The notes under the pieces are model-generated. The model saw only the letters and a list, made by a program, of their open reading frames with translations, had not been told where the DNA came from and ran no database searches. Positions 2,897 through 40,108 of a stretch of 40,492 nt of DNA are shown one piece after another (the stretch's first letter is position 1; every line of letters starts with the position of its first letter). Made by a program: the position numbers and the translations under genes. The stretch comes from Nitrospira sp. (GTDB lineage: Bacteria > Nitrospirota > Nitrospiria > Nitrospirales > Nitrospiraceae): the NCBI GenBank assembly GCA_018242665.1, contig JAFEBL010000031.1, positions 1-40,492 of the forward strand. Direction: 5' to 3'.

Positions 2897-3046
2897 ATGC
2901 TTATTTTCCTAGGCACCCTGCAAGCAATTGCAGGGGGAACCACACAGGAAATTCACCCCGTACCATTTGTAAGTTCCAAAGGAACATCTTGTTGATCTCC
3001 GCCCACAGCCTCTCAAAAGAATTAGACGAAGCGGGTGTGCGCCATC

Positions 3047-4210
3047 CTAGATGCGGACTGAATTGGATCGGCCTTTGATTGAAGCCGCAGCATGCACTGC
3101 TCCCCAGAATCGCCTCACCATTTCCGGCAATGTAAACTCTTCGCTTGCCGTGAAGAGTGCCCGTTTCGACATCGCTTGGCGCAAAGTTTCATCGGAAACC
3201 AATTGAAGCATTTTTCTGCTCAGATCCAAGCTGTCGTTTTCTGCGTACAAAATCCCATTTTGCCCCTCAATTAGGGCAGCCACTTCCGGCGACTGGTTCG
3301 AGAGATTATCGTGCGTAATCACAGGAAGTGCATATCCCATTGCGTGCAAAATACTTAACCCGATATACCCCGGATATACGAATACCTTGGCCGAAAGGAA
3401 CCATGGAGCCATAAGATCTTGGTCATAAATGGCCCCGAGCCACCGGATAGATTCCATTACATTTAGTCGCTTTGCCAATTGTTCCAAGTTGTTTCGTTGA
3501 TCGCCATCCCCTATGAGAACCAATAGACAGTTCCTGTTTCGTTTGCGCAGTTGTGCGAGCGCTTCAATAGCCAGGTCGACCCTAGCCTTAGCTGAAAGAC
3601 GCCCGCAAAACAGAAAGACTTGTTTGCCGGATATTCCGTGCTTATCTTGGAACGCGGCAACGCGTGACGAAGGCCACTGGGCTGTTGCTGTCTTCAATGG
3701 TGCCTGATCAATAGCATTGTTAATGGCGAACACACGTTCAGGTGGGAATCCCATGCGGAGAAATTCCTGCTTCTCCCGCTCAGTATAAAGAAGAATGACG
3801 TCCATCCAGCGCATGATTCGTGCGCGCAGGAGGTGCCGAAAGCGATTCTGGCTTGGCATCGAACCAATCCCCCACCAGACAGTTGCGATGTTCCTTCGTT
3901 TTGCCTTCCAGAGGAGAGGATAGTTACTTAGGAATCTTGCATTGCCACACACAACTAAAACATCGCCACTCTTGGAGTTAGGATCAAGTGCGATCCCATT
4001 TTGCCACATCAATCTATTGTTTAAGAACCCAGTGCACGGGTAATTCACCCGGAATGATGGTCCGATGCAGACAGCAGTTTTTATGCTTTGATCATTCGGC
4101 AACTGCTTGCTCGCGAATACACAAACATTGTGGTCACCGTTTTCAATGAGAGTCGTAAAAAATGGAATTCGATACTCAGGGACAATTGGCTGGATAATTT
4201 GAACGTTCAT
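3047..4210 (-). CDS. glycosyltransferase, GT-B fold (GLSxxHxMG type)
   Basis: A 387-residue glycosyltransferase. FLFCGRLSAKAR (199-210) marks the start of the nucleotide-sugar domain, and VLIGDGDQRNNLEQLA (231-246) is the usual second strand/turn. In place of the classic E-x7-E there is VYPGYIGLSILHAMGYALP (278-296) followed by ITHDN and a PE pair. This looks like the recognised subfamily with PGxxGLxxxH rather than a mutated GT4. The ATG overlaps the stop of the upstream polymerase by one base (TAATG), so the two are translationally coupled. A cytosolic role in repeat-unit assembly for the exported glycan is inferred from neighbours; the sugar is unknown. Confidence 0.85.
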   Translation of the reverse strand: MNVQIIQPIVPEYRIPFFTTLIENGDHNVCVFASKQLPNDQSIKTAVCIGPSFRVNYPCTGFLNNRLMWQNGIALDPNSKSGDVLVVCGNARFLSNYPLLWKAKRRNIATVWWGIGSMPSQNRFRHLLRARIMRWMDVILLYTEREKQEFLRMGFPPERVFAINNAIDQAPLKTATAQWPSSRVAAFQDKHGISGKQVFLFCGRLSAKARVDLAIEALAQLRKRNRNCLLVLIGDGDQRNNLEQLAKRLNVMESIRWLGAIYDQDLMAPWFLSAKVFVYPGYIGLSILHAMGYALPVITHDNLSNQSPEVAALIEGQNGILYAENDSLDLSRKMLQLVSDETLRQAMSKRALFTASEEFTLPEMVRRFWGAVHAAASIKGRSNSVRI

Positions 4211-11300: not shown

Positions 11301-11493
11301 CTCGATAGTGCCCTCTGGAAAAACGGTCCGTCATGTTGTCGGATACCCGCTTGAGATCGCTCTGGAACCAGACATCATTGATCTCGGTGAATAGAGCAGG
11401 ATCGTGCTGGCCATGTAAGGTATAGAAAACACCGGCAGCCGCTGACGCAAAAAGAATGGCTAATACTGCCTCAGTGAGATTCAGTTTAGACAT
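8335..11493 (-). CDS. GT-C-like membrane domain fused to six-hairpin glycosidase-like domain
   Basis: A 1052-residue two-part protein. Residues 1-400 contain about ten transmembrane helices with short loops such as NDVWFQSDL (39-47) and LSVPESYGLG (139-148). The D/E-rich first periplasmic loop recalls membrane glycosyltransferases of the GT-C type. Residues ~420-640 look like beta-rich linker domains. Residues ~640-1000 form an alpha/alpha toroid like GH15/amylo-glucosidase-type six-hairpin enzymes: PLAWQRDGAYALVALARAG (664-682, WQRD loop), FGPEADAPGLSLWAL and a late PHYWTAAEMALLQMD segment. The soluble half should be periplasmic. It may process or terminate the glycan, but activity is unproven. 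The start MSKLNLTE is an ATG. I do not recognise a named family with exactly this architecture. Confidence 0.75.
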   Translation of the reverse strand: MSKLNLTEAVLAILFASAAAGVFYTLHGQHDPALFTEINDVWFQSDLKRVSDNMTDRFSRGHYRVKVHPLHSLLTYSPTLLLRKSGFAPLQAVQLVTASIAGFYLLMYYALLRAIGCLRVDALVFSLLGACSAAALFWLSVPESYGLGATSIVIGLLLTATATHRRQAVWKYIAVSAMTLSVTVTNWMVGILATITAHNLKRAAIITLVAFFLVAILWGMEKQIFPTATFFIGDREEGRYLVWPSIRRIVSVLDTVFFHTMISPTITVAGTAGHDWPLLSMQNSVPGSSGLLGIAGILLWSLLLGLGLWALLSGNTPRAIRIALGLTLLGQLSLHTLYGDETFLYSLHFLPLLTSVAALSTLTHLRIPAMVIALALIPIAGANNWQKFSEAIALAASPRHEVKMHMLSRPQDPWPRSVGHVVLAQPGSLETEKSYHEPGGNFSPGVGTFGISLWLTDATGKPKVTSETIPLSNLSQSFLWTNGTVLPTVRTSTDFYATEWSQAKWGEWLLHVTVPDHVSLSSSLLIRSVGPAGGPIRELQWNGQFLLVNGRWSIAIAPLPSAVQLGEEATPDWEQSTGEARHLVSHGGWGFARIVLSKATQWTVSVRDEQPSGAPNLYSDKTAADLWLNLPDDRFQQSLNSQIAHLMMGLVGAETRPGDPTNYPLAWQRDGAYALVALARAGKLNTARHLSKQFAEKDFFGGFGPEADAPGLSLWALGTVADQLRHKEFDEWLWPHISRKVALIETMLQTSSNLYQKVEGPIVPKHKGNPNLSLLAEPVRDGLIVGKMDHHRPVLFVNAISYRGLVEAAKLANRLRHAEHARRWMLTANKLKTAWETKFAPPLSDNDRTFISAIWPSWVATAKRRDFEILADRRWEARHDTTGAYTTPPLWTYFELAETHQWLFLNRLDRMWATLHWFWDHQSSPGLYTWWEGTGEENSFGKWTRVRGWVNPPQVTPHYWTAAEMALLQMDMLGYVDENEEEPVLILGGGIPQEWVGREMDVRKLRVGNILLDWRWNGRSMSAVIHGERRVKVKLGTSFPATADLRVTYQDT

Positions 11494-17424: not shown

Positions 17425-18324
17425 TCACGGCAGCGGTACAGAAAACATCACCTTCGTGCCGCGTTCGTTATAGGTCAAATCGGGGAAAAAGGCTTTGGCC
17501 AAAAGGACGCCGCGTCCGTTTGCGTCACAGTTGTCTGAAGGATGTTTGCCTTGAGTCAGGATGCGATTCCAGGTGAACCCGTGGCCCTCATCGGCAATCG
17601 CATAGTGAAGCCGGCGACGGTTGAGATCATAGCTGGCATGAACGACCACGCGGCGCGTGATGAATCGTGGGTCACGACGGCGTGCCTCGATCAAGGCCTC
17701 GAATCGATCGGTGCTGAGTGCCTGTTGCTTCTCGTGACATTGAATTTCCAGGCTGCCATGTTCCACGGCATTGACGATGAGTTCGATGAGGGTCGCGCGA
17801 AGATGCAGGCGCTGGGATTCCGGAAGTTTCCCGGCCGTTTGTTCGATCAACCAGCTCACGCAGGCTTCGACCTGATGGGGATCGGTGCCGATGGTGAGAC
17901 GGTAGTCCAATTGCTCAATGCCTGAAATCGCCTCCACCGAACAGGGCAGCCTCTGTATCGCGCGCTCCAGAGCCAGCCCCAGCTCTGCGGCACAGGTCGG
18001 TTGTGGCACAAAGTCTGTCCCGCCGGCGCGCATGGCCTCAAGGATTGTACTTGCGTCGGCTGTGTCGGCGGAGGCGATCATGACCGTGGAGGCCCAACGA
18101 TTGCGGATGGCCTCCATCAGCAGGTGTCCGGTGCGTTCCGGCAAGAAGAGATCCGTGATGACGATGTCCGGGAGCGCCATTTCCACCATGGCGAGCGCCG
18201 CTCTGGGATCCGGAGCGGTGACGACGGAGAGGTGATGCGATGCGGCTTGTTCCAGCGTGAGGGCTAACGTGTCGGAATCGGGGAGGACTGCCAGCAGGGT
18301 ACGGGACGTCCTCGAGGGGGTCAT
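17425..18324 (-). CDS. REC-like domain fused to RsbW-type anti-sigma/HATPase kinase
   Basis: A 299-residue protein. Residues 8-125 fold like a receiver with D58 in IVITDLFLP, but the acidic pair is P15-D16 and the conserved lysine is Q108 (FVPQPT), so the phosphorylation site looks degenerate. Residues 140-299 form a GHKL ATPase of the anti-sigma type: N-box ELIVNAVEHGS with N185, G1 box IADEGHGF with D245, and G2 region GRGVLLAKAFF (270-280). It should phosphorylate a STAS partner and so sequester or release a target. The ATG overlaps the Hpt stop by four bases (ATGA). It is the last gene of the partner-switching operon. Confidence 0.85.
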   Translation of the reverse strand: MTPSRTSRTLLAVLPDSDTLALTLEQAASHHLSVVTAPDPRAALAMVEMALPDIVITDLFLPERTGHLLMEAIRNRWASTVMIASADTADASTILEAMRAGGTDFVPQPTCAAELGLALERAIQRLPCSVEAISGIEQLDYRLTIGTDPHQVEACVSWLIEQTAGKLPESQRLHLRATLIELIVNAVEHGSLEIQCHEKQQALSTDRFEALIEARRRDPRFITRRVVVHASYDLNRRRLHYAIADEGHGFTWNRILTQGKHPSDNCDANGRGVLLAKAFFPDLTYNERGTKVMFSVPLP

Positions 18325-18680
18325 GTGGGGAATCCTTTTTCGATGATCGTCACCAGCGTCTCCGTGAGGCGCCCTGTTTCCCTGTGCACTTGCTCAGCCA
18401 ATGCGGCAAGATCCTGTCGCGCAGCGTTGCGGGCCGATTCTTCCAACTGCGCCGCGGAGGTCACCGTGGGCATGGCGCAAAATTCCATAGCCGATCCCTT
18501 TAACTTGTGCGCTTCTTTCATTAAAGCCTGCAGATCTCCCGCAGTCATCGCGGCCTGAATGGCAGAAAGCGCTTGAGGCGACCGTTCGACGAACAAGCCG
18601 GCTAATGTCAGAAACAGCTCTTGGTCGCCATCCAACCGATCGAGCGCGGCGGCCAGGTCCATGACTGATTGAACATCCAC
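18321..18680 (-). CDS. histidine phosphotransfer (Hpt) protein
   Basis: A 119-residue single Hpt domain. The phosphorylatable histidine is H58 in AHKLKGSAMEF (57-67), the exact H-x-x-K-G-S pattern of Hpt proteins. It lies in a four-helix bundle beginning LDRLDGDQELFLTLAGLF. It should shuttle phosphate between a kinase and a receiver, most simply the REC-PP2C protein encoded just upstream or the REC-like protein downstream. The GTG start overlaps the preceding stop by one base (TAGTG) and its own stop overlaps the next start by four bases, so the three genes are tightly coupled. Confidence 0.9.
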   Translation of the reverse strand: MDVQSVMDLAAALDRLDGDQELFLTLAGLFVERSPQALSAIQAAMTAGDLQALMKEAHKLKGSAMEFCAMPTVTSAAQLEESARNAARQDLAALAEQVHRETGRLTETLVTIIEKGFPT

Positions 18681-19945
18681 TATGCCCTTCCCTTCCGTGC
18701 TCCCGATCCGTCCAGGAGTTCCAGCCCTAACAACGCGACATCATCGGGAAAAATCTCCCCGCCCAGCCACTGGTGGGCGATGGCCATGGTTTCGGTGATG
18801 CTCTGAACCAGGCTGGACGTACGATGCTCCTCGAGTGTGGCCTGCAGGCGAGACTTGCCCCAGAGTTCTCCCGTCGTGGAGGGTGCCTCGTAGATGCCGT
18901 CGCTCAGGAGGTAGAGCCGGTCATTCGGCCGCAGCTGCGCGCAGACGGTATCAAAGGTCGACGCGGGATCGAACCCGAGGGGAAGGCTGGCCGCCGCCAG
19001 CCACTGAGAGTCGCCGGCGGCGGCATGCAGAAACGCGCCGCCATGGCCGGCCGTAGCGTAGGACAACATGTGCGAGGTGAGATCGAGGCGCCCGACCCAC
19101 AAGGTGAAATATTCACCGTCTTGGCTCAACGGAAACCTCTGGTTGGCTTCGTTGATGATCGCGCCGGGGTCAAAGCTGCCAACGGCTTTCACCAGATTGT
19201 CTTCGCGCAGGAAGGTCATGAGCCCCACCGCCCGCAAGGCTGCGGCGACACCATGGCCGGATGCATCGAGAATGTACAGCCCGAGTGCGTCTGTACCCCA
19301 GGGACAGACCTGGAAGAGATCTCCTCCCAGGGCTAGCGACGGCTGATAGGCCCAGTGCATGGCGATGCCCGAAGCCGGGACGCCGGGCAATGGGAGCTGG
19401 GCGCGCACGAAGCTCGCGGCTGACTGCAATTCACTTTCCAATTCATGTTGCTTTGCGGACAGCAGCTTGTGCGACCGATCGAGATCATCCCTCGTGCGTT
19501 CAATTTCGCGAACCAACGCGCTCGATCGCAAGCTGGCCTGCACTCGCGCGAGGACTTCCTGCTTGCTGGCAGCTTTGCTGAGAAAATCATCGGCCCCGCG
19601 CGAGAGGCCTTCAGCAATCTGTTCGGGCCGGTCGTGCGCGGTCATCAAGACGACTTGACTGGAGCGCAACTCGGGATCCGCGCGGATTGCTTCACAGACG
19701 CTGGGCCCGTCCATCCCCGGCATCATCCAATCCAAGATCACCAAGTCAGGCCGTTGCGTGCGGATCGCGGCCAAGCCGGCGCTTCCATCGACGGCTTCGA
19801 TGACACGGTATCCCAAACGCTTTAAGCGACCGGCCATGCCGATTCGGGTGATGTCGTCGTCGTCGACTAGCAAAATCAGCGGCACCGGCTTGTGAACCGT
19901 GTCAACGCTGATCGGCGGTGATGTCTGCGGTGCGGGTTCCCCCAC
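18680..19945 (-). CDS. response regulator fused to PP2C/SpoIIE phosphatase (RsbU/HsbR-like)
   Basis: A 421-residue protein. The receiver occupies ~22-140, with an acidic cluster at ILLVDDDDITR, phospho-acceptor D72 in VILDWMMPGMDG, and K124 (FLSKA, where the usual proline after lysine is alanine). A coiled-coil linker (~142-185) leads to a SpoIIE-type PP2C domain: metal-binding D209 in LALGGDLF, D227 in ILDASGHGVAAAL, and YLLSDGIYEAP near 345. It should dephosphorylate a phospho-STAS protein under control of receiver phosphorylation, which sets the state of the partner switch. It lies 21 bases downstream of the STAS gene that is its likely substrate. The domain order matches the first two thirds of Pseudomonas HsbR. 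Confidence 0.92.
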   Translation of the reverse strand: MGEPAPQTSPPISVDTVHKPVPLILLVDDDDITRIGMAGRLKRLGYRVIEAVDGSAGLAAIRTQRPDLVILDWMMPGMDGPSVCEAIRADPELRSSQVVLMTAHDRPEQIAEGLSRGADDFLSKAASKQEVLARVQASLRSSALVREIERTRDDLDRSHKLLSAKQHELESELQSAASFVRAQLPLPGVPASGIAMHWAYQPSLALGGDLFQVCPWGTDALGLYILDASGHGVAAALRAVGLMTFLREDNLVKAVGSFDPGAIINEANQRFPLSQDGEYFTLWVGRLDLTSHMLSYATAGHGGAFLHAAAGDSQWLAAASLPLGFDPASTFDTVCAQLRPNDRLYLLSDGIYEAPSTTGELWGKSRLQATLEEHRTSSLVQSITETMAIAHQWLGGEIFPDDVALLGLELLDGSGARKGRA

Positions 19946-19966
19946 GTGGACGGCTCCTGAAACTGT

Positions 19967-20317
19967 CTATCCGACGGCCGGCAGGTGAATCGCCGCGAGT
20001 GCGTCCTGCTCCGAGTGATAGATCGGCAGCATCTGATGCAGATTTGCCAAGGTGATAATTTCTTTTACGTAACTTTGAGGATTCAACAAACTGATTCTTC
20101 CCGGCGTCCCATTCAGGCCTTGCGCCACGAGCGCCAGCGTCCCGAGCGCCGAACTGTCCAGGAAACGAACTGCGTGCATGTTCAGAATCAGATGCCGACA
20201 CCCGCCGGCTTTCACCCGATCGACCGCACCTTTGAATGTGGCGCGGTTGGCATAGGTCAGCTCCCCGACCAGGTCGAGGATCGCGACTGTTCCGACCCGC
20301 CGTTCTGTAATCTGCAT
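19967..20317 (-). CDS. STAS-domain anti-sigma factor antagonist
   Basis: A 116-residue single STAS domain of the RsbV/SpoIIAA type. The beta-strand VAILDLVGELTYANRATF (11-28) and the phosphorylation loop RFLDSSALGTL (51-61; serines 55/56) are canonical. It is presumably phosphorylated by the RsbW-like kinase and dephosphorylated by the REC-PP2C protein encoded 21 bases downstream, switching between partners. The next STAS gene is 30 bases upstream, so there are two antagonists for one kinase/phosphatase pair in this operon. Confidence 0.92.
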   Translation of the reverse strand: MQITERRVGTVAILDLVGELTYANRATFKGAVDRVKAGGCRHLILNMHAVRFLDSSALGTLALVAQGLNGTPGRISLLNPQSYVKEIITLANLHQMLPIYHSEQDALAAIHLPAVG

Positions 20318-20347
20318 GCCCGGCCCCCTCTCCGACGGCGGAACCGC

Positions 20348-20686
20348 TCACGCGCTCTTCTTGACCATCGCCGGCGAATCAGATTCGATCAGCGGAATCG
20401 TCTTGTGCAAATTGGCCAACTCGATAATCTGCCGGACGGTCGGCTGGGGATAGGCCAGCGACAACGTGCGCTTTTCGGCTTGCAACTGCCGATGGGAAAT
20501 CATGAGCAGTCCCAACGCGGCGCTGTCGAGGAACGCCACTTGCGTGAGGTCGATCACGATCTGATCTATGCCGTCAATGGCGACCGCCTTCAACATTTCT
20601 TGAAACGGCTTGCGCTGGGTGTACGTAAAATTGCCTTCCAGTTTCAATGTGACTTTGTGATTATTGACTTCTTTCGTGATTTTCAT
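20348..20686 (-). CDS. STAS-domain anti-sigma factor antagonist
   Basis: A 112-residue STAS domain. It opens KVTLKLEGNFTYTQRKPF (11-28) and has the phospho-loop AFLDSAALGLLM (51-62) with S55. It is a paralogue of the STAS protein encoded 30 bases downstream and carries the same F-x-Y-x-x-R element after the first strands. A GAGGAG precedes the ATG at good spacing. It lies 29 bases after cheB, so chemotaxis and partner-switching genes are probably co-transcribed. Role as a second substrate of the RsbW-like kinase is inference. Confidence 0.92.
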   Translation of the reverse strand: MKITKEVNNHKVTLKLEGNFTYTQRKPFQEMLKAVAIDGIDQIVIDLTQVAFLDSAALGLLMISHRQLQAEKRTLSLAYPQPTVRQIIELANLHKTIPLIESDSPAMVKKSA

Positions 20687-20715: not shown

Positions 20716-21765
20716 TCAGGCACGGCTGACATGGTTTAAAACTGCGGCGGCGATTTCGTTCAGCGGGCGTACGACTTCCACCGCGCCGAGCTTGATGGCT
20801 TCTTTGGGCATACCGAACACGACGCAGGAGGCTTCATCCTGCGCGATGGTGAAGGCTCCGGCTTCTTTCATCTTGAGTAACCCCTTGGCGCCGTCTCCGC
20901 CCATTCCGGTAAGGATCACGCCGATGGCATTTCCTCCCGCGTACTGCGCGACGGAATCGAACATCACGTCTACGGATGGGCGATGGCGGTTGACGGGTTC
21001 ATCCTGGTTGATGCGGACGGAGTAGCGGGCGCCGCTCCGCACGAGCGTCATGTGGTAGTTGCCGGGAGCCACCAATGCATGGCCGGGCAAGACGCTGTCG
21101 CCGTCCACGGCTTCCTTGACGGAGATGCGGCTCAGTTGGTTCAGCCGGTCGGCCCAGGTCTTGGTGAAGCGTTCGGGCATGTGCTGCGTGATCAAAATCG
21201 GCGGGGTATTGGGCGGCAACACCTGCAGCACGTCTTTCACGGCTTCGGTGCCTCCAGTGGAAGACCCGATGGCGATGATCATGTCGGTGGTCTTGATCAT
21301 GGCCGAGCTCAGCGCGGTCGGCCTGGGAGCACTCTGTTCTCCGGCGGCCGGTGCACGCCGGAGCGTGGCAGTCGCTGCGCCCTTGACCTTGGCGATGAGA
21401 TCGGCGGCGATGTCGTCCATCCCCTGCCGCAGATCGATCTTCGGCTTGGTAATAAAATCTACCGCGCCAAGTTCCATGGCCCGGAGCGTGGTTTCGCAAC
21501 CGGCCTCCGTCAATGAACTGACCATGATCACCGGGGTGGGACGCCCGCGCATGAGCTTTTCCAGAAAGGTTAAGCCGTCCATCTTGGGCATCTCGACATC
21601 CAGAGTCAGCACATCGGGATTGAGTGCCTTGATCTTCTCTCTGGCCACATAGGGGTCCGGCGCGCTGCCGATGACCTCGATGTCGGGATCCTTCGACAGC
21701 AGTTCAGCCAGCACTTGCCTCATCAACGCGGAATCATCGATCGTTAGGACGCGAATCTTAGCCAT
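20716..21765 (-). CDS. cheB: CheB, chemoreceptor methylesterase/glutamine deamidase
   Basis: A 349-residue response regulator with an N-terminal receiver ([12 protein letters not shown]56 in [13 protein letters not shown]108 in FITKP) and a C-terminal esterase. The esterase catalytic triad is S169 in [12 protein letters not shown]195 in ITQHMPERF and D291 in [12 protein letters not shown]. It removes methyl groups from receptor glutamates after phosphorylation by CheA, giving adaptation. It follows cheR and cheD in transcription order, so the adaptation genes are together. It is one of two CheB proteins in the window; this one belongs to the cluster with the globin receptor. Confidence 0.96.
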
Positions 21766-23933: not shown

Positions 23934-26246
23934 CTAGAACTCTTCGAAGTCATCATCCTTCTTGTGATGGCCGTTCCCCGCCGAAACACCGACCGGCTGC
24001 TTGGCATCTGCCGGCTTCGATGAGAAGCCAGGTTTTTTCAAGCCCGGCTTCGGGGCGGCCACGGCCGACTTGACCACCGTTCTGGTCGCCGATGCGGCTG
24101 GGCGCGAGACCGCGCGGGGTTCGGAGGAGTTGACGATGAACATTTCCATTTGGTTCATCAACTCCTTCGCCTGATCCTTCATCGATTGGCTGGCCGAGGT
24201 GGTTTCCTCAACCAACGCCGCGTTCTGCTGCGTGGTCTCGTCCATCTGCATGATGGCCTTATTAACCTGGTCGATCCCCTGCGCCTGCTCCTGAGAGGCC
24301 GCGGTGATCTCCGCGATGATGTCGGTCACTCGTTTCACCGAGCTGACGATCTCCTCCAGCGTTTTGCCGGATTGGTTCACCAACTCGCTGCCGTCGCTGA
24401 CGCGTTGGATCGATTCATTGATCAATCCCTTGATCTCTTTGGCCGCCGTCGCCGAGCGCTGCGCCAGGTTCCGGACTTCTGCCGCAACCACCGCGAATCC
24501 GCGGCCGTGCTCGCCAGCCCGAGCCGCTTCCACTGCGGCGTTCAACGCCAAGAGATTCGTCTGGAAGGCGATCTCGTCGATCACGGTGATGATGTCCGCG
24601 ATCTTTTTGCTGCTCTTGTTGATCTCGCCCATCGCTTCCACCGCGCGAACCGTGACGGAGCCGCCTTTGTCGGCGATATCTCGCGCCGCAATGGCCAGCT
24701 GATTCGCCTGCTTGGCGTTGTCAGCATTTTGCTTCACGGTCGACGTCATTTCTTCCATGGAGGCAGACGTTTCCTCCAGCGCGCTGGCTTGTTCCGACGT
24801 ACGCTGCGAGAGATCTTCGTTGCCCTTGGTAATTTGCTCTGCGCCGGAGGATACGGCCTGGACAGCTTCTCGCACGGTCGTGATGGTGCTAGTCAGGTTC
24901 TGCACGACCGCATTGATGCTGCACTTCACTTTGTCCAGATCGCCTCGATAGGTCTCGGTCATCTCGAGCGTGAGATCGTTGTTCGCCAGTCGGCCGAGGA
25001 CTGCCTGCGCCTCTGCTACCAGCTTCTCCATGTCCGCTTGCGACTGCTTCTGCGCAGTGATATCCGTCGCAAACTTCACGACCTTGTACGGTTTTCCGCT
25101 GGCATCGAAGATGGGGTTGTAGGAGGCTTGAATCCAAATCTCCCTGCCGCCCTTCGCGATCCGCTTGTAGACACCGGCATCGAATTCTCCGCGGTTCAGC
25201 TTGGCCCAAAAGGCCTGGTACTCGACGCTGTTGGCGAACGCCGGGTCCGCAAACATCCGGTGATGCTTGCCCTTGATTTCATCCAGGCTGTAACCCAGAC
25301 AGGCGAGGAAGTTGTCGTTGGCGGTGACGACGGTTCCGTCGAGATTGAACTCAATGACCGCCTGCGACTTGCTCATTGCGGCCGCCTGCTGTTCCATCTT
25401 CCGCTTTTCCGTCACATCGGCCCACTCCAGTGCATTGCCGAGATACTCTCCGGTCTGGCTCATGACGGCGGTGACCAACAGGCTGAGGGTCAGCGGGCCG
25501 ATCTGAATGTCGGCCTTGTGCGGCATGTTGGCCGGGTCGGACAAGATTCTGCGCTGCTTGCTGGGGTCGAGATGGAAGTCATCGATACAAGTCCCCACCA
25601 CTGAATTCACATTGAACTTCGGCAGCACCTTTTTAATTTCTGATTCAAGGGCCGTGAGGGTCTTCTTCGCCGTCGAGTTGGCATAGGTGATGACCAAATT
25701 GCGATCGCAGAGCAGAATGTTGTTTTGCGACTGTTCCAGTGCGCCCAGGTAAAAGCCGCTCATATCCATCTGCGCTGGCGCTTTCTTCTTTGTCTTCGCC
25801 GGTGCCTTACTCATTGTCTTCTCTCCTTCTGTGTGGTGTCCTCGTTTTGCTCCTTCGAGCATAATCGTCTTAATGGCCGTATAGGCGTCCGTCCAGGCTT
25901 GACTGACTTCGGCGGTCCAGGCGTTCCCGGCGAATTCGCCCAGCACCGCCAACAGATTTTCCCCGACCGCGTCGTAGTACGCCGGCTTGGCGCCGTACCC
26001 GACATGCCTGGCTCCCATCTCCTGCAACACGGGAGTGAGTTTTTCCGGATGGCGGAGGTTTTGGATGACCAGCACGAGAGAAGCCAACAGCTTTTTCTTC
26101 TGTTCGCTGATGGACGCGTTCTTGAACAGCGGCTTGACGACCGGATACTTCTCGAACAGACGTTCATAGAAGCGGGTCACCAACGCGTCGCCCTGCGGTG
26201 CCACAAGTTTAAAGCTCGATTCCAACAATTCGATGTTCAGTCCCAT
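23934..26246 (-). CDS. cytosolic chemoreceptor: globin - PAS - PAS - MCP signalling domain
   Basis: A 770-residue receptor without membrane helices. Residues 1-136 are a flavohemoglobin-like globin: B10 tyrosine Y27 (RFYERLF), CD1 phenylalanine F41, E7 glutamine Q49 and proximal histidine H81 (GARHVGYG). PAS-like domains follow at ~160-285 and ~293-400 ([18 protein letters not shown]), then a HAMP-like stretch (~408-455) and a full MCP hairpin whose tip is [24 protein letters not shown] in halves around the QTNLL core. A flexible Pro/Ala/Lys-rich tail (~690-765) ends in DFEEF, a likely CheR/CheB tether. It should sense O2, NO or redox state and control CheA through CheW. The ATG has AGGGAG upstream. 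A strong internal Shine-Dalgarno and ATG exists at residue 145. Confidence 0.95.
25814..25828 (-). promoter_or_regulatory. internal Shine-Dalgarno and ATG within the globin receptor gene
   Basis: AAGGAG (25828-25823) stands 8 bases before an in-frame ATG (25814-25812, residue M145, MSKAPAK). Initiation here would give a ~626-residue receptor lacking the globin domain. It may be an active second start or a relic of a gene fusion. Confidence 0.45.
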
Positions 26247-26835: not shown

Positions 26836-28959
26836 CTATGCCGCCTTGGCCGTCCCTTTCCGAGAAATGTTGAGCAATCCGCGGACATCCAGAATGAACC
26901 CGACCGTGCCGTCCCCGAGAATGGTGGCGCCGGCGACGCCTTCGATCTTTCTGAAGTTCTGCTCCATGCTCTTGATGACGACCTGCTGCTGCCCGAGAAT
27001 CTCATCGACCATGACCGCCACGCGCTCGCCTTCCGTTTCCAGAATCAGGAGGATGGCCTTGGTCGGATCCGACAGTTCCGGTTCCAGACGGAAGACTTCG
27101 TAGAGACGCATCAACGGCAGGTAGGTGCCGCGCACGTTCACCAGCTCCCCTTTCCCGACGAGGGTCTTGATCATCTCGCGTTTAGGCTGAATCGATTCCA
27201 GAATCGACAGGAGGGGGACGATGTAGGTGTCCTTGCCGACTCGAACCGTCATCCCTTCGATGATCGCCAGAGTCAGCGGCAGCTTGAGGGTAAAAGTGGT
27301 GCCCTTCCCTGCCGTGGTCTTGATGCTGACCGTGCCGCCCAAGCCTTCGATGTTACGCTTCACCACGTCCATGCCGACCCCGCGGCCGGAGACGTCGGTG
27401 ACCTTTTCAGCAGTCGAGAATCCAGGTTTGAAAATCAACATCCAGATCTGTTCGTCCGACAATTTGTCCGACTCGCTGATCAGTCCTTGCTTGAGGCCTT
27501 TGGCGAGGATCTTCTCTCGATTCAGGCCACGACCATCGTCTTCCACGGTGATGCAGATGTTGCCGCCTTCATGGAACGCATTCAGACGGATGATACCTTG
27601 CTCGGGCTTGCCTGCCGCCACCCGTTCGTCAGGAGGCTCCAGACCATGGTCCGCTGAGTTCCGTACCAAGTGCGTCAATGGATCCCCGATCGATTCGATC
27701 ACCGTCTTGTCGAGTTCGGTTTCCTCGCCCGACAGAATCAAATGAATCTTTTTGCCTGCCTTACCGGAGAGGTCGCGGACGAGGCGCGGAAACCGGCTAA
27801 ACGCGTTTCCGATGGGGACCATGCGAATGCCCATGACCCGTTCCTGAATCTCCCGGGTATTGCGTTCGAGTTGCGCCACCCGTTCCAGCAAGACAGGAAG
27901 CTGACTCATTTCAAAGCGGGAGCCCAGATCGCTCAACATGGACTGCGTAATGACCAGTTCGCCTACGAGATTGATCAATCGATCGATCTTGACGGTATCG
28001 ACCCGAATGGAAGGGGTTTCCGCCTTTTTCGCGGGTGTTGCCGCTTCCGATTGGACCTTTAAGGCGTCGGAGATTTGTTTCGGCGTGGCGATCTTCTGTT
28101 CGATCAAAATCTCGCCGACTCGCTTTTGCTGCGACAGGGCTTGGTTCAACTCTGTCTGGGAGACGATGCCGCTCTCGACGAGGATTTCGCCTAAGGGCTT
28201 CACACCCTCGGACGAAACGGATGAGGAAGAACTCGTCAGGGGCTGATCGACGATCGTCAAGGTGCTGTCTTCGCGCACGAAATCAAACACGGCCTCGATG
28301 ACCTTCAGATCCTTGACTGTATCCAGTTCGAGCGTCCAGGCCAGGTAGCACTGCTCTGGATCCAGGTCCTTCAAACCGGGCAATCGGCTGCGATCGAGTG
28401 CGACATGGGACACGGCGCCCAGTTCGCCCAGTTCCTTGATGAACTGGGTTGGGTCCAGTCCTCGTTGAAAGAGATACCGCGGGGGGACCCACGTGATCAG
28501 GTAGTGATGGTTCTCCTGTGCCTGAGACTGCGCCGGCGCGGGTGATATCGCCCCAGGCTTGGGCGCTGCCGCCCCGCTCTGACAGGCTTCGAGTCGTGCT
28601 CCCAATTCTGACACCAGATCGTCGTTGGGCGCCTCCCCGGACTTTGCGCAATCGATCAAAGTCTTGAGGCAATCGAGCGACTGCAGCAGGAGATCGGCGA
28701 CCTCCACTGTCACCACCATCTGGCTGCTGCGGAGCTGGTCGAGAACGGATTCCATCTTGTGCGTAAACTGAGAGACGGCCGTGAAGCCGAACATGCCGCT
28801 GTTGCCTTTGATGGAATGTGCGCCGCGGAAAATTCGGTTGAGGAGGTCGATGTCCCCGGGACGTTGTTCGAGTTGGAGCAATCCTTCCTCGATCGTCGTC
28901 AGGTGTTCCTGCGATTCTTCGAAGAATGCGTCTTTGAAATGGGACAGGTCAGTGCTCAT
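26836..28959 (-). CDS. cheA: CheA histidine kinase with inserted MshEN-like repeats
   Basis: A 707-residue kinase. Domains in order: P1 Hpt with H48 in RGAHSIKGNSGMFGF; a ferredoxin-like P2-type domain (~150-238; ITWVPPRYLFQRGLDPTQF); two 24-residue repeats (255-278 and 280-303), each beginning x-[LV]-G-E-I-L and ending in Q; P3 dimerisation helices (IDRLINLVGELVITQSML); the P4 HATPase with LVRNSADHGLE, DDGRGLN and GRGVGMDVV; and P5 CheW-like. It autophosphorylates and passes phosphate to CheY and CheB. The repeats resemble the c-di-GMP-binding MshEN fold of type II secretion and pilus ATPases, though the key arginine is kept only in the second. It sits between cheY and cheW. Confidence 0.95.
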   Translation of the reverse strand: MSTDLSHFKDAFFEESQEHLTTIEEGLLQLEQRPGDIDLLNRIFRGAHSIKGNSGMFGFTAVSQFTHKMESVLDQLRSSQMVVTVEVADLLLQSLDCLKTLIDCAKSGEAPNDDLVSELGARLEACQSGAAAPKPGAISPAPAQSQAQENHHYLITWVPPRYLFQRGLDPTQFIKELGELGAVSHVALDRSRLPGLKDLDPEQCYLAWTLELDTVKDLKVIEAVFDFVREDSTLTIVDQPLTSSSSSVSSEGVKPLGEILVESGIVSQTELNQALSQQKRVGEILIEQKIATPKQISDALKVQSEAATPAKKAETPSIRVDTVKIDRLINLVGELVITQSMLSDLGSRFEMSQLPVLLERVAQLERNTREIQERVMGIRMVPIGNAFSRFPRLVRDLSGKAGKKIHLILSGEETELDKTVIESIGDPLTHLVRNSADHGLEPPDERVAAGKPEQGIIRLNAFHEGGNICITVEDDGRGLNREKILAKGLKQGLISESDKLSDEQIWMLIFKPGFSTAEKVTDVSGRGVGMDVVKRNIEGLGGTVSIKTTAGKGTTFTLKLPLTLAIIEGMTVRVGKDTYIVPLLSILESIQPKREMIKTLVGKGELVNVRGTYLPLMRLYEVFRLEPELSDPTKAILLILETEGERVAVMVDEILGQQQVVIKSMEQNFRKIEGVAGATILGDGTVGFILDVRGLLNISRKGTAKAA

Positions 28960-29459: not shown

Positions 29460-30578
29460 TCAAAACAGGGTGACATTGGCATCTTCTGTTGGCGCGGCAG
29501 CTTGCGACGCTTGGGCAAACTGGCCGTTGGTCGATTGATGAAACAGCGCACGCTCTTCTTCCATGGTGTAGCTCTTGTCGAGCTTGCTCAGGAAATCCAA
29601 CCTGGCGGCCACCTGCTCTCGCGGCTGTCCTTGAAGCAAGGCATCCATCAATTCGCGCACTTCGGTGAGCGGCTCGATCACGTGTTCCAGTTTCTGCCTG
29701 GTGATGTCCTGAAACTGCAGCGCCATGATGATTTTGCCGACGTCTTGCGCCAACTCGTCCGCGTGTGATTTGGAGTTCAGGATGGCGGCATGCAGGGTCT
29801 TGTTGCGTTCAGTCAGGTTGCGGGTCATCTGATCCAGACGATGTTTGATCGAGAGCGTTTTGCTGAGGTCGACGGAGGCCAGGCTTTCCACCGTGGTCAT
29901 GGCCTGACTGGTGCTTTTCTGCACCTCCTTCACCATGCTGTTGATGCTGCATGCGGCTTGTCCGGATCGGTTGGCGAGTTTGGTCACTTCGTCGGCCACC
30001 ACGGCGAATCCCCGTCCGTGTTCTCCCGCGCGCGCCGCCTCGATCGCGGCATTCAGCGCAAGCAGCCGCGTCTGGTCCGCAATGAATTGGATCTCACCGA
30101 TCATGCCGGTGATCGCCTTGGTGCTGCGTTCCACTTCGTCCATGATCGTCGCGATGTTGAGCGCCATTTCCGACGACTTCATGACGTCACTGACAAACCC
30201 TTCGAGCATGGTATCCGTGGTTTTCAGCACGGTGTCCATGTTGAGTTCGCCGCCGCCGCCATAGAGGGTCATGAATTCGTTGCCCTGAGCGGTGGCGCGA
30301 GAGGCAATCATGCTGAAACGCTGACCCAGATCGGTCGCGGCTTCTTCGGTCTGATGAATCACGCTTTTCATTTGGGCGTTCAGGATCAGCACGAGCGGCA
30401 TCATCGAATGCCCGAGTTGCTCCCACAAGCCGGTCCGATCGGCATGGTCCTTGAGGGTGCCTTCGAACGTGGAGCGAAGCGAGTCCTGCGTGGAGGCAGT
30501 CTGCCGATGACATCGGGCCCAGGACACATATGCACCGAGACAAAACGCGCACAGGACGTACAACAAGTCGAGAATCAT
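29460..30578 (-). CDS. membrane-anchored MCP-like protein with CheZ-type FQDxxxQ motif
   Basis: A 372-residue protein. One N-terminal hydrophobic segment (1-19) anchors it; there is no periplasmic sensor or HAMP. A short MCP signalling hairpin spans ~120-235 with the tip [20 protein letters not shown] (166-185). After it, residues ~255-315 form another helical segment with [20 protein letters not shown] (283-302). This matches the catalytic helix of CheZ, with D291 and Q295 equivalent to the CheZ acid and glutamine, and it aligns with the CheZ in this window. The C-terminus is DANVTLF. A receptor-array-bound phosphatase for the CheY encoded 37 bases downstream is the simplest reading, but unproven. 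Confidence 0.82.
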
Positions 30579-35296: not shown

Positions 35297-36394
35297 TCAC
35301 ACCATGTTCATGATCTCGCCGATGACTTTTGACAGCGGCACCACTTTCTCCGCACATCCTGCCTCAACGACGGCCTTCGGCATGCCGTAGACGACACTCG
35401 ACGCTTCATCCTGCGCCACGGTTCGACCTCCTGCTGTCTTAATGGCCTTCATGCCCTCCAATCCGTCATGGCCCATGCCGGTGAGAATGACGCCGATGCT
35501 CCGCTCCGCAAACAGTACGGCGACCGATTGCAACATGATGTCGACCGACGGCGCATGGGGGTGTTTTTCGAAATTCGGCGACAATTTGACCACCGATGTC
35601 GTAATGGTTTTTTTGACGATCCGAAACTGCATCCCTCCAGGGGCAACCAACACCCGTCCTGGTTTCACTTCGTCCCCGTCCACCGCTTCCCGGACCTCCA
35701 AGGCACAGAGATTGTTCAAGCGTTCGGCAAAAGGTTTGGTGAACGAACTGGGCATGTGCTGCACAATGACGATGCCGGCTGGACAGTCGGCTGGAATGGT
35801 CGGGATAATTTCAAACAACGCTTGGGGGCCACCGGTGGAGCATCCGATCGCAATCAGTTTCGTGCCGCGTGTAGCAGACACTGATCGGCTGCTCAGCGCC
35901 TTGGCCGGAGAGACGGCGACTTTGCCCGTTCCCCCGACTGTGAGCCGTTTCAGTTTGCCGGCCGCGTATTTGGCGGCCAGCACTTTGGGAACCAGTATTT
36001 TCTGAATCTCGGCAATTTTTGACGCCACCCCGTCGAGTTGTTTGGGGATAAAATCCACTGCGCCCCACTCCAACGCCTGCAACGTCTCTTGCGCGCCTTC
36101 GACCGTCACGGAGCTCACCATAATCACCGGAACGGGATTCTTGGTCATGATCTGCTGGAGCGCCTGGAGTCCCGTCATTCCCGGCATCTCTACGTCCATC
36201 GTGACGACGTCGGGCTTCAATTGTTGAACCTGCTGCACGGCTTCCTCGCCGTTGCGTGCCACGCCGACGACTTGGATTTGCTTGCCCTCCTCCAACATCG
36301 TGGTCAGGCTCTTCCGCATGAAGGCGGAATCGTCAACGACCAAGACGCGAACCGGATTCGCGGCGCGCTGAGGCTGTGAAAGTGGCAGTGCCAT
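35297..36394 (-). CDS. cheB: CheB, chemoreceptor methylesterase
   Basis: A 365-residue protein from the ATG at 36394, which has GGGGAAG about 6 bases upstream; the longer open frame would run into cheV and has no homologous content. The receiver shows VLVVDDSAFMRKSL (17-30), D67 in VVTMDVEMPGMTG and K118 in FIPKQ. The esterase triad is S186 in AIGCSTGGPQA, H213 in VQHMPSSFTK and D310 in ILTGMGHDGLEG. It differs clearly from the other CheB, so each cluster has its own esterase. No cheR accompanies it here, which suggests it shares the one encoded in the neighbouring cluster. Confidence 0.95.
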   Translation of the reverse strand: MALPLSQPQRAANPVRVLVVDDSAFMRKSLTTMLEEGKQIQVVGVARNGEEAVQQVQQLKPDVVTMDVEMPGMTGLQALQQIMTKNPVPVIMVSSVTVEGAQETLQALEWGAVDFIPKQLDGVASKIAEIQKILVPKVLAAKYAAGKLKRLTVGGTGKVAVSPAKALSSRSVSATRGTKLIAIGCSTGGPQALFEIIPTIPADCPAGIVIVQHMPSSFTKPFAERLNNLCALEVREAVDGDEVKPGRVLVAPGGMQFRIVKKTITTSVVKLSPNFEKHPHAPSVDIMLQSVAVLFAERSIGVILTGMGHDGLEGMKAIKTAGGRTVAQDEASSVVYGMPKAVVEAGCAEKVVPLSKVIGEIMNMV

Positions 36395-36473
36395 AAGGTC
36401 TTCCCCGATACATCGGCCGTCTCCAGAAAAAGCTTGAATCGACTTTGCCGAGACGATGATCTTTGCCTGAGCC

Positions 36474-37457
36474 TTACGCGGCTTTTTTCGCCTGCTGATT
36501 GCCGTCGTGAATGTGGAGCGCCAGCTTCTCGCTGAGCATTTTTGCGTCAAACTTCGTGATGTAGTCCGTTGCGCCGACCGTTCGTCCCTTCTCCATGTTG
36601 CAGGCTCCGGTCAGGGAGGAGTGCAGCATCACCGGCAGGTGCGCCAGCCTCGGATCGGCACGAATGTGTCTGGTCAAGGTGAATCCGTCCATCTCCGGCA
36701 TTTCGATGTCGCTGAGAATGCACTGGATCTGGTCCACCCGCTCCTTCCCCTCCGCGGTGGCCTGATCCGCCAAGGCCTGCAGCTTGTGCCAAGCCTCCCC
36801 GCCCGTAGTGGCGATCACATACGACATTGAGAGTCGGTCCAGGGCTTTGCGAATCTGCATCCGGGCAACCGACGAGTCGTCGGCGAACAGGACGCATTTC
36901 GAGCGCAACTCAGGCGCGATGGTCATGCTGGCAAAAACATCGTCGTCGGTACGTGGGCAGATATCATTCAAGACTTTTTCCACGTCGAGGATCAGCACCA
37001 TGCGACCATCGTCCAGCATGGTGACGGCGGTCACGGCCCCTTTGTTGTTTTCCCGGACGATAGCCGGAGGCGTCTTGATGGCCGACCAGGAGAATCGGAT
37101 GATGCGATCAACCCCTGCCACCAGGAAGCCTTGTAAACTGCCATTGTATTCGGAGACGATCAGGTAAGGATTCGACCCGGCCCCCCCGTCTGTCTGCAGA
37201 TCACTCTCCAGTCCCAGACCGAGACTGCGTTTGAGCCCGACGACCGGCACCATGATGCCGCGGATATTGGCCATGCCGACGATCCGGCTGTCGGCCTCCG
37301 GAATCTGAGTCAGTTCCGGGAGCTTCATCACCTCGCGCACTTTGAAGACGTTGATCCCGAAGATTTCGTTGGTGCCAAGCTTGAACAGCAAGAGCTCCAT
37401 TTGGTTGGCGCCGGCCAGCCTGGTGCGAGCATCGATTTCATTGATCAGTGTGGACAT
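36474..37457 (-). CDS. cheV: CheV, CheW-receiver hybrid coupling protein
   Basis: A 327-residue protein. Residues ~18-168 are a CheW domain (LLLFKLGTNEIFGINVFKV, MANIRGIMVPVVGLKRSLG). Residues ~186-318 are a receiver with FADDSSVARMQIRKAL, phospho-acceptor D250 in ILSDIEMPEMDGF and K302 in YITKFDAK. CheV couples receptors to CheA and, when phosphorylated, adjusts kinase output as an adaptation or phosphate-sink device. GGAGGAAG lies close before the ATG. It lies 94 bases after cheA and 79 bases before cheB. Confidence 0.95.
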   Translation of the reverse strand: MSTLINEIDARTRLAGANQMELLLFKLGTNEIFGINVFKVREVMKLPELTQIPEADSRIVGMANIRGIMVPVVGLKRSLGLGLESDLQTDGGAGSNPYLIVSEYNGSLQGFLVAGVDRIIRFSWSAIKTPPAIVRENNKGAVTAVTMLDDGRMVLILDVEKVLNDICPRTDDDVFASMTIAPELRSKCVLFADDSSVARMQIRKALDRLSMSYVIATTGGEAWHKLQALADQATAEGKERVDQIQCILSDIEMPEMDGFTLTRHIRADPRLAHLPVMLHSSLTGACNMEKGRTVGATDYITKFDAKMLSEKLALHIHDGNQQAKKAA

Positions 37458-37551: not shown

Positions 37552-39423
37552 TCAGGCTGCGATGCCCGGGTTGTGCCAGGCCTGCGCATTCTGTACCAGT
37601 TCCGACGTATCCAAGATCAGCACCACTTTTCCCTCACCGGTGATCGTGGCGCCGGACACGCCCTTCACGGTTTCGAGGTAATCCCAGATGGACTTGATGA
37701 CGACTTCTTCTTGCGAACGAAGTTCATCAACGACGACACCGATGCGCCGATCTCCCAACGCGGCCACCACGACATAGAACCGCTCCCGGTCTGCATCCGT
37801 CGGGATGTCGAATTCCTGTGCCAAGCGAATGAGCGGAAGGACGCGGTCCCGCAAATGCAGCACTTCCCGCCCGTTGATGGTTTTGATATCGCTGCGGGAA
37901 ATCCGGACCGCTTCAATCACGGTGCTCAGCGGAATCGCGAAAATCGATCGCTCGACTTCGACCATCAGCGCCTGGATAATGGCGATGGTCAGCGGCAGCT
38001 TGATGATGATCTGGCTGCCTTTTCCCGGTTCCGATTCCAGATCCACGCTGCCGTTGATCTTGCGAATGTTGGTGCGAACGACGTCCATCCCGACGCCGCG
38101 GCCTGAGACATCGGTGACCTGCTCGGCCGTGCTGAATCCCGGAAGAAAAATGAGATTCAAGACTTCACGGTGTTCCATGGTCGCGAGCTCGGCTTCACTC
38201 ACCAGCCCCTTGCTCAGAGCCTTGGCTTTGATCTTTTCCACCTGGATGCCGCGCCCGTCGTCGTTGATGCGAATGACGATGCTGTTGCCTTCTTGACTGG
38301 CCGCGATGGTCAGCAATCCCTCCCCGGTCTTGCCTTTCGCCTGGCGATCCGCCGGTGTTTCAATGCCGTGGTCGATGGCGTTGCGCACGAGGTGAACCAG
38401 GGGATCGCCGATTTCGTCGGCTACGGACTTGTCGAGCTCAGTCTCCTCACCATGCATTTCCAGACGGACCTGCTTGTTCAGTTTCTGGGACAGGTCACGC
38501 ACCATGCGAGGGAGCTTGGCGAAGACCTTCTTGATGGGCAGCATGCGAGTCTTCATTACGGCCAGCTGCAAGTCGGTCGTCACCAGGTTGAGTTGCGCGA
38601 GTGTTTCGCTCAGCACACGAACCTGAGGATCCGACTCATGCTGTTGCTCTAACTGCGTGCCGATTTTGATGAGACGATTGCGTCCCAGCACCAGCTCGCC
38701 GACGAGATTCATGACGCTGTCCAGCCGTTTGGTTTCCACCCGGATGGTGGCGTCCTCTTCCACCGGCTTCGATTGTTTTTCCTGTTTATGCAGCGCCTGA
38801 TCCAGGGCGCGCTCTGTGATGGCCTTGGCCTGAAGCAAAATCTCGCCGAGCGGAGTCTTGGGTTCAGCCTGATGCTGCTGGGCCGTCAAGGCGTCAAACA
38901 CCTGCTCCTTCGAGGCCAGTCCGTCGTTGACGAGAATCTCGCCGATGGTCTGGGCTGGGGCGGCCTCAGGCGCCGCCGCTTCGACTGTGGGTGGCGCCGT
39001 GTCCGCCGCAGGGGCTGGCATGGCGGCGACCGGATTCCCGTTCAAGATATCGTCGAGTTTGGCGGCGATGGCCTGGGTCGGCACGTGGCTGTCCGTCCCG
39101 GAATCCTTGATGTCGGCCATGATGGCCTTAATGACGTCCACCGTTTCGAGAATCACGCTGATGATGGCCGGGCTGACCGCCATTTCGGCTTGCCGGAGTT
39201 TATTGAGAATATTTTCTCCGCGATGCGCGACATCCACGAGATGATTGAATCCCAAAAACCCCGCGGAGCCTTTCATGCTGTGCATCGCACGAAAAATTTC
39301 ATTGAGCAGGTCGGTATTGTTCGGATCGGACTCCAGCGTGACAAACCGCTGATCCAGGACCTCGAGCATCTCGTTCGATTCGGTCAGAAAGTCGTTGAGT
39401 ATTTCCTGCATTTCATCGCTCAT
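37552..39423 (-). CDS. cheA: CheA histidine kinase with inserted MshEN-like repeats
   Basis: A 623-residue kinase. P1 has H48 in RAMHSMKGSAGFLGF. There is no P2 domain like that of the other CheA; instead an Ala/Pro-rich linker (~130-157) leads to two 24-residue repeats (159-182 and 191-214), each with x-[IL]-G-E-I-L and a terminal Q. P3 (LDSVMNLVGELVLGRNRL), P4 (LVRNAIDHGIE, NDDGRGIQ, GRGVGMDVV) and P5 (CheW-like, LVLILDTSEL near the end) follow. It phosphorylates CheY, CheB and CheV. The repeats are MshEN-like, but neither keeps the leading arginine. The gene follows cheZ by 8 bases and precedes cheV. Confidence 0.95.
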   Translation of the reverse strand: MSDEMQEILNDFLTESNEMLEVLDQRFVTLESDPNNTDLLNEIFRAMHSMKGSAGFLGFNHLVDVAHRGENILNKLRQAEMAVSPAIISVILETVDVIKAIMADIKDSGTDSHVPTQAIAAKLDDILNGNPVAAMPAPAADTAPPTVEAAAPEAAPAQTIGEILVNDGLASKEQVFDALTAQQHQAEPKTPLGEILLQAKAITERALDQALHKQEKQSKPVEEDATIRVETKRLDSVMNLVGELVLGRNRLIKIGTQLEQQHESDPQVRVLSETLAQLNLVTTDLQLAVMKTRMLPIKKVFAKLPRMVRDLSQKLNKQVRLEMHGEETELDKSVADEIGDPLVHLVRNAIDHGIETPADRQAKGKTGEGLLTIAASQEGNSIVIRINDDGRGIQVEKIKAKALSKGLVSEAELATMEHREVLNLIFLPGFSTAEQVTDVSGRGVGMDVVRTNIRKINGSVDLESEPGKGSQIIIKLPLTIAIIQALMVEVERSIFAIPLSTVIEAVRISRSDIKTINGREVLHLRDRVLPLIRLAQEFDIPTDADRERFYVVVAALGDRRIGVVVDELRSQEEVVIKSIWDYLETVKGVSGATITGEGKVVLILDTSELVQNAQAWHNPGIAA

Positions 39424-39431
39424 AGCCCACC

Positions 39432-40082
39432 TCAGTTAAAACCGAATTGCTTCAAGATCTCGTCGGCGAGATCCTGGTCCATGGAGGTATTCTTGGTCGC
39501 TTCCAACTGCTTCAGCATCTCGCTCGCCTTGTCCTGGCTTTGCTTGGCCGCCTGCTTTTGATAGGGACCAAAGACCACGACCAGTTGCAACAGCTTGTGT
39601 TCGACTTCCTGCAGAATCGTGACGAGTTTGTTGACGCTCTGCGCGACTAAGTCCTGAAAGGACAACGCGGTCATGATATCGAGCAATCGCTTGTCGTCGG
39701 CGCCAATGGCTTGATTGATGGCCTGCAGCTGTTGAAGGAGTGCCGGAGCGGTCTTCGCGTGCTGCAAGGCGAGCGTCAGCTCTTTAATCATGCCGCTGAG
39801 CTTCAGGTGATTGTCTTGAATAGCTTCGACCTCGAGCATGACGCGATGAGTCCCCTGCTCGGTCATGGTCTTGAGGTTCGTCAGATGCGTCAGTGCCTGC
39901 GGCAACTGTTCTGTCGATGTGCTGACCGGCGTGCTGAACTCGGACAACGTCTTCATCGTGGTATCGATGAATCGAGCGAGTTCCCCCAGTTCCTCGTAGA
40001 GCTTGGTGTCGGGTGCCTTTCCCCCCTGCTCATCCTCGTCTGCCGCATTGTGCGCTTGTGCCGCCACGCGTGGTTCTGCCAT
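39432..40082 (-). CDS. cheZ: CheZ, CheY-P phosphatase
   Basis: A 216-residue protein. The frame opens at a GTG four codons earlier, but that GTG lies inside the Shine-Dalgarno GGTGAGGG that serves the ATG at 40082. The long helical hairpin contains LDIMTALSFQDLVAQSVNKL with the catalytic aspartate and glutamine spaced D-x3-Q, equivalent to D143 and Q147 of E. coli CheZ. The C-terminus DLADEILKQFGFN matches the CheZ CheY-binding peptide (LLxSLGF type) after a flexible linker. It removes phosphate from CheY-P. It lies 26 bases after cheY and 8 bases before cheA. Confidence 0.93.
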   Translation of the reverse strand: MAEPRVAAQAHNAADEDEQGGKAPDTKLYEELGELARFIDTTMKTLSEFSTPVSTSTEQLPQALTHLTNLKTMTEQGTHRVMLEVEAIQDNHLKLSGMIKELTLALQHAKTAPALLQQLQAINQAIGADDKRLLDIMTALSFQDLVAQSVNKLVTILQEVEHKLLQLVVVFGPYQKQAAKQSQDKASEMLKQLEATKNTSMDQDLADEILKQFGFN

Positions 40083-40108
40083 CGTCACCCTCACCGGTTA
40101 AGAGCCGA

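Follow-up and report, generated by a model that had tools for sequence, protein, structure and literature searches.

A compact MshEN_N-like module before the P3 domain of two Nitrospira CheA kinases, a candidate c-di-GMP receptor

Could the chemotaxis kinase CheA read the second messenger c-di-GMP directly? c-di-GMP reaches chemotaxis through adaptors and receptors. A PilZ-domain chemoreceptor is one example (PMC6454048). In the open-access literature, we found no paper in which CheA itself was tested for c-di-GMP binding. The question is raised by a stretch of 40,492 nucleotides of Nitrospira sp. DNA (hereafter the window, part of contig C31 of a 4.06-Mb genome), in which a first-pass annotation had pointed to tandem MshEN-like repeats inside a CheA.

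Results

Two CheA kinases with paired 24-residue motifs before P3

The window encodes two CheA proteins, CheA1 and CheA2, with the following features:

26836-28959, minus strand: CheA1, 707 residues; order P1 (Hpt), P2-like, MshEN_N-like module, P3, P4, P5
28240-28509, minus strand: P2-like alpha/beta domain of CheA1 (residues 151-240), located before the module; assigned at moderate confidence from the strand-helix pattern that the full-length model shows
28126-28197, minus strand: motif 1 of the CheA1 module (residues 255-278, PLGEILVESGIVSQTELNQALSQQ), 24 residues
28123-28125, minus strand: spacer of the CheA1 module, one residue (K279)
28051-28122, minus strand: motif 2 of the CheA1 module (residues 280-303, RVGEILIEQKIATPKQISDALKVQ), 24 residues
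27829-28011, minus strand: P3 dimerization domain of CheA1 (PF02895 match), directly downstream of the module
37552-39423, minus strand: CheA2, 623 residues; P1, MshEN_N-like module, P3, P4, P5 (from Pfam and motifs)
38878-38949, minus strand: motif 1 of the CheA2 module (residues 159-182, TIGEILVNDGLASKEQVFDALTAQ)
38782-38853, minus strand: motif 2 of the CheA2 module (residues 191-214, PLGEILLQAKAITERALDQALHKQ), after an 8-residue spacer

Both proteins have the parts of a CheA histidine kinase—Hpt, P3 dimerization, HATPase_c, and CheW-like domains—in that order. In CheA1, Pfam matched Hpt, H-kinase_dim, HATPase_c, and CheW, CheA entries in the PDB matched with E-values down to 2.6e-154, and a Pfam search of the P2-like domain returned no match. 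Thirteen residues separate the end of motif 2 (residue 303) from the start of P3 (near residue 317). The full-length CheA1 prediction was poor (pLDDT 62, pTM 0.31, 13 sequences) and served for domain order only; within it, residues 241-252 and 307-338 fall below pLDDT 50, and these stretches flanking the module are possibly flexible. Between P1 and P3 of CheA2, Pfam finds nothing and there is no P2, so the module occupies the place of that domain.

The repeats of CheA1 had been read correctly in the first-pass annotation: residues 255-278 and 280-303 follow the tandem pattern xLGxx(h)(h)xx(G)(h)(h)xxxxLxxxLxxQ, with hydrophobic residues at positions 17 and 21 and a final Gln, except that motif 2 has Lys for Gly at position 10. 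It was also right that the leading Arg is kept in motif 2 only and that the spacer is a single residue. The motifs begin with Pro and Arg in CheA1 and with Thr and Pro in CheA2; neither protein has Arg in both, or Arg, Lys, or Leu in both under an extended definition, and neither has a five-residue spacer. Putative ligand-contact residues are present in both CheA1 motifs (G257 and Q278; G282 and Q303).

Relation to the MshEN N-terminal subdomain

Is the resemblance to MshEN more than a repeat pattern? The best adjacent pair of 24-mers in CheA1 is the motif pair shifted by one residue (256/281), with a BLOSUM62 score of 45 that was reached by none of 300 CheA1 shuffles (shuffle maximum 42). With 13 canonical MshEN_N sequences of pilus ATPases as its sole input, a profile found CheA1 (E = 5.6e-9) and CheA2 (E = 1.7e-8), nothing else among the 314 window frames, and no match in 6280 shuffled frames. 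When 36 CheA modules were compared with the 13 canonical domains by hhalign, the probability was 99.0% (P = 7.5e-18). Searched against all PDB sequences, the CheA-module profile matched only MshEN-bearing pilus ATPases, i.e., T. thermophilus PilF (the best, at 1e-33), PilB (4e-13), and MshE (3.9e-12).

AlphaFold2, using an alignment that includes longer-spacer homologs, modeled the 59-residue CheA1 segment as four helices (H6-13, H18-26, H31-37, and H43-57; mean pLDDT 82.4), with a shorter loop at the one-residue spacer and the four-helix bundle unbroken. The top Foldseek matches of this model were c-di-GMP-bound MshE (5HTL) and PilF GSPII-B (8PDK), on both of which it superposes (TMq 0.75-0.82, rmsd 1.0-1.8 Å), at E-values that are weak (0.018), as expected for 59 residues. 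VIA-align scored MshE at a Z of 9.3 and the first unrelated structure in its ranking at 4.0; helical bundles reach middling Z through shape alone, and the fold match was weighed together with the sequence evidence. Structure prediction of the repeat segment, which had been proposed as a check, bore the resemblance out. We conclude that the CheA1 and CheA2 segments are true relatives of the c-di-GMP-binding four-helix MshEN_N subdomain of MshE and PilF. The earlier label "MshEN-like" holds for this N-terminal subdomain on three counts (the profile comparison, the PDB search, and the predicted fold) and does not extend to MshEN_C, the alpha/beta subdomain that follows the motifs in a full MshEN and is absent here.

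Why, then, is Pfam silent? PF05157, the Pfam MshEN model, has no match in CheA1, and such a profile search had been put forward as a refuting check. PF05157 models the MshEN_C subdomain, beginning after motif 2: in the canonical ATPase L120 the motifs span 1342-1500 and the PF05157 match starts at 1501, and in an ATPase of this Nitrospira genome the motif match (43384-43545) abuts the PF05157 match (43123-43383) on the minus strand. Its silence on the CheAs is therefore uninformative and the check non-decisive, and we rejected PF05157 as a test for the module. Also set aside were DUF4388 (PF14332), which scored 15.9-22.7 bits against a gathering cutoff of 25, and matches of FumaraseC_C and Arg_repressor to the isolated CheA1 segment, which were below their cutoffs.

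Conservation and distribution

How well is the module kept, and where else does it occur? Across 12 module-bearing orthologs, mean pairwise identity is 0.70 and 0.73 in the two motifs and 0.17 and 0.48 in the flanking linkers. The highest-identity orthologs of CheA1 all come from Nitrospira, and one relative (L022) lacks the module entirely, which indicates a discrete, losable unit. Among named genomes, CheAs that carry the module ahead of P3 come from Nitrospira, other Nitrospirota, Candidatus Brocadia, Nitrospinaceae, Dethiosulfatarculus, Syntrophus, Desulfobacterales, Desulfurivibrionaceae, Spirochaetota, Planctomycetota, and Hydrogenedentota. It is patchy within the phylum (8 of 30 CheA loci, picked by best P3 score), and across 41 of its genomes a module match lies directly upstream of at least 24 of about 115 P3 matches, as judged by comparing two listings by eye. 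The spacer is a single residue in 23 of the 36 aligned CheA modules and 2, 4, 6, 7, or 8 residues in the others; it is 5 residues in all 13 aligned canonical domains and 7 in some PDB relatives.

Of 72 CheA motifs, 71 keep Gly3, 68 keep Leu21, and 70 keep Gln24; the module-bearing CheAs were partly selected with a motif-1 pattern (positions 2-11), which inflates the motif-1 counts of Gly3 and Gly10, and Gln24 and the whole of motif 2 lie outside this pattern and hence were not chosen by it. Position 1 is Arg or Lys in 38 of the 72 and Pro in 29. Gly10 is replaced by Lys, His, or Gln in most second motifs, and the aligned canonical ATPases also show Asn or Lys. Longer arrays occur as well: a Hydrogenedentota CheA (L110) has four tandem 24-residue motifs (match 2992-3201), and a 1076-residue protein (L112) has many dispersed along its length.

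Within the Nitrospira genome, the CheA-module profile has only three matches: CheA1, CheA2, and one secretion/pilus-type ATPase, where the match lies directly upstream of that protein's PF05157 match. The third CheA of the genome (C45, 1138 residues) lacks the module, both in its full sequence and in the genome profile search; with several Hpt-like segments and a receiver, it resembles ChpA/PilL. The genome's three own ATPases with PF05157 matches (L001 on C8, L002, and L003) have degenerate or unrecognizable binding motifs, so that CheA1 and CheA2 may, by their motifs, be its best MshEN_N candidates for c-di-GMP binding.

Neighboring genes

Adjoining the chemotaxis genes, a set at 17425-20686 (minus strand) encodes a receiver with an anti-sigma-type ATPase, an Hpt protein, a receiver with a SpoIIE phosphatase, and a STAS protein. 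The set is reminiscent of the Pseudomonas HptB-HsbR-HsbA partner-switch, which is tied to motility and c-di-GMP. At 23934-26246 (minus strand), a single 770-residue protein combines a globin domain at its N terminus with PAS domains, a weak HAMP-type match, and an MCP signaling domain; it is a chemoreceptor and, by its predicted domains, a globin-coupled one with added PAS modules. Between the CheY-like gene adjacent to CheA1 and motA/motB lies a gene for an MCP-like protein (29460-30578, minus strand) that matches CheZ weakly (E = 1.9e-4, below cutoff) and contains an 11-residue stretch similar to the active-site helix of CheZ. A full CheZ has its own gene at 39432-40094. A CheV-like CheW-receiver fusion (36474-37457, minus strand) and the presence of two CheB genes in one cluster (20716-21765 and 35297-36550) suggest two neighboring chemosensory systems, each with a module-bearing CheA. 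Elsewhere in the window, a polysaccharide gene cluster holds a 1052-residue open frame (8335-11493, minus strand) with no Pfam match at E 0.001.

Determinants of c-di-GMP binding

Do the CheA modules keep what c-di-GMP binding takes? In MshE, the ligand is contacted by Arg1, Leu2, Gly3, Leu17, Leu21, and Gln24 of each motif (PMC5013675). The subdomain is not strictly defined by its leading Arg, because T. thermophilus PilF GSPII-C binds c-di-GMP with a middle motif that starts PLGEILVE, i.e., with Pro at position 1; PilF GSPII-B binds it at 6 nM with Lys/Leu at this position and no Arg (PMC11731258). Lacking MshEN_C, a 57-residue PilF N-subdomain construct binds at 695 nM; binding there depends on both Gln residues and was lost when motif 2 began with Ser, and such constructs gain order upon ligand binding (PMC12002112).

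The retention of Gly3 and Gln24 in nearly all CheA motifs favors retained c-di-GMP binding, and CheA1 appears, from its sequence, to keep most of the binding requirements, with the one-residue spacer as the main remaining point. Among solved MshEN structures, we found none with a spacer as short as one residue. The earlier worry that loss of Arg and the short spacer may abolish binding is weakened—GSPII-B and GSPII-C bind without a full set of Arg, and the model with the one-residue spacer superposes on ligand-bound domains. Of the two candidate binders, CheA1 (Pro and Arg) is the better; CheA2, whose motifs start with Thr and Pro, may be weaker and is more doubtful. With GGDEF matches at five sites in the genome and 31 PilZ matches, the messenger is very likely present in the cell.

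Discussion

What might such a module do in a chemotaxis kinase? Our reading, to which we give a probability of roughly 55%, is that a compact stand-alone MshEN_N before P3 of both CheAs binds c-di-GMP and tunes the kinase. Homology, position, conservation, and predicted fold are the established part of it, and binding and the effect on the kinase are what we infer. Two 24-residue helix-turn-helix motifs would form a four-helix bundle immediately ahead of P3, where it separates the phospho-donor part (P1, joined by P2 in CheA1) from the P3-P4-P5 core. Each module would hold one c-di-GMP through the Gly3 backbone, hydrophobic clusters around Leu21, and the two Gln24 side chains, with Pro, Lys, or Arg tolerated at position 1. 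Since PilF N-subdomains become more ordered with ligand, c-di-GMP could order, stiffen, or shorten the tether and so alter the encounter of P1 with P4; phosphorylation of P1 would then be tuned, coupling c-di-GMP to chemotaxis output. The more pointed proposal, in which CheA itself is a direct c-di-GMP receptor whose compact MshEN_N controls whether P1 can reach the kinase core, perhaps with the one-residue-spacer site formed in trans across the dimer, we hold at somewhat less than even odds.

Other explanations deserve weight. The MshEN_N fold may have been kept and the ligand lost, leaving an element that spaces P1/P2 from P3 or docks a protein there, for example a PilZ-family partner or CheY/CheB, or that serves array packing; we would put this at about one chance in three. 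In its favor, Xanthomonas citri PilB has an ND0 of the same fold without the c-di-GMP motif residues and an N-terminal domain that binds PilZ (PMC8389850). The ND0 structure (7LKO) is also a fold match to the CheA1 segment model, the genome's PilZ matches would offer partners, the CheA2 module sits at the site of P2, itself a docking domain, and Arg1 and the spacer deviate in the CheA modules. However, X. citri PilB lost its ligand motif, whereas Gly3 and Gln24 are nearly invariant in the CheA modules of several phyla, and if the module were only a spacer, nothing would call for an identical Gln in each motif.

A one-residue spacer might instead block an in-cis site, so that motifs of two CheA protomers pair in trans by domain swap and c-di-GMP reports or stabilizes the dimer. 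The position of the module directly before the P3 dimerization domain in the CheAs examined, the maintenance of short connections (the 23 single-residue spacers), and the CheA with four tandem motifs would all suit such an arrangement, but the monomer model closes a compact four-helix bundle with the one-residue spacer, within 1.0-1.8 Å of ligand-bound domains, and we regard pairing in trans as improbable. As for a chance or low-complexity resemblance within the linker, the silence of PF05157 and the sub-threshold DUF4388 score are what one would expect of it; PF05157 does not cover the motifs, however, and profile comparison, PDB search, conservation, and shuffles reject chance so firmly that we give it next to no credence.

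How does the CheA module compare with known systems? Like the MshEN N-subdomain of V. cholerae MshE (5HTL; PMC5013675), it has two tandem 24-residue motifs, a four-helix fold, and Gly3, Leu21, and Gln24; it differs in its spacer (1 in CheA1 or 8 in CheA2, against 5 in MshE), in not keeping Arg1 in both motifs, in having no MshEN_C, and in its host, a CheA rather than a pilus ATPase. T. thermophilus PilF (GSPII-C, 6EJF and 6F8L; GSPII-B, 8PDK), the best PDB sequence match, has in GSPII-C a motif, PLGEILVELG, that is near-identical to CheA motif 1, Pro at position 1 included, but its GSPII-C spacers are longer and it carries an MshEN_C-type subdomain in an ATPase context. X. citri PilB ND0 (7LKO) has the four-helix fold in common with the CheA module and has lost the c-di-GMP motif residues. 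Wang et al. (2016) mention MshEN occurring with CheA in one clause, with details in supplementary tables (PMC5013675); as far as that clause goes, these fusions are the same association as in the Nitrospira CheAs. We would describe the CheA module as a known receptor fold in compact form, without the C-subdomain; its pairing with CheA has been noted but is unexplored.

Because the public "MshEN" model of Pfam covers the part that follows the binding motifs, modules like these escape it, and stand-alone MshEN_N is probably undercounted. The 59-residue segment is small and conserved, and the two CheAs of one cluster differ in position 1 and spacer, which suits a direct binding question. If the reading is true, c-di-GMP would have a direct path to the chemotaxis kinase, one other than PilZ adaptors, PilZ-bearing receptors, and CheY-like effectors, and the "settle or swim" signal of nitrite-oxidizing Nitrospira may feed directly into that kinase.
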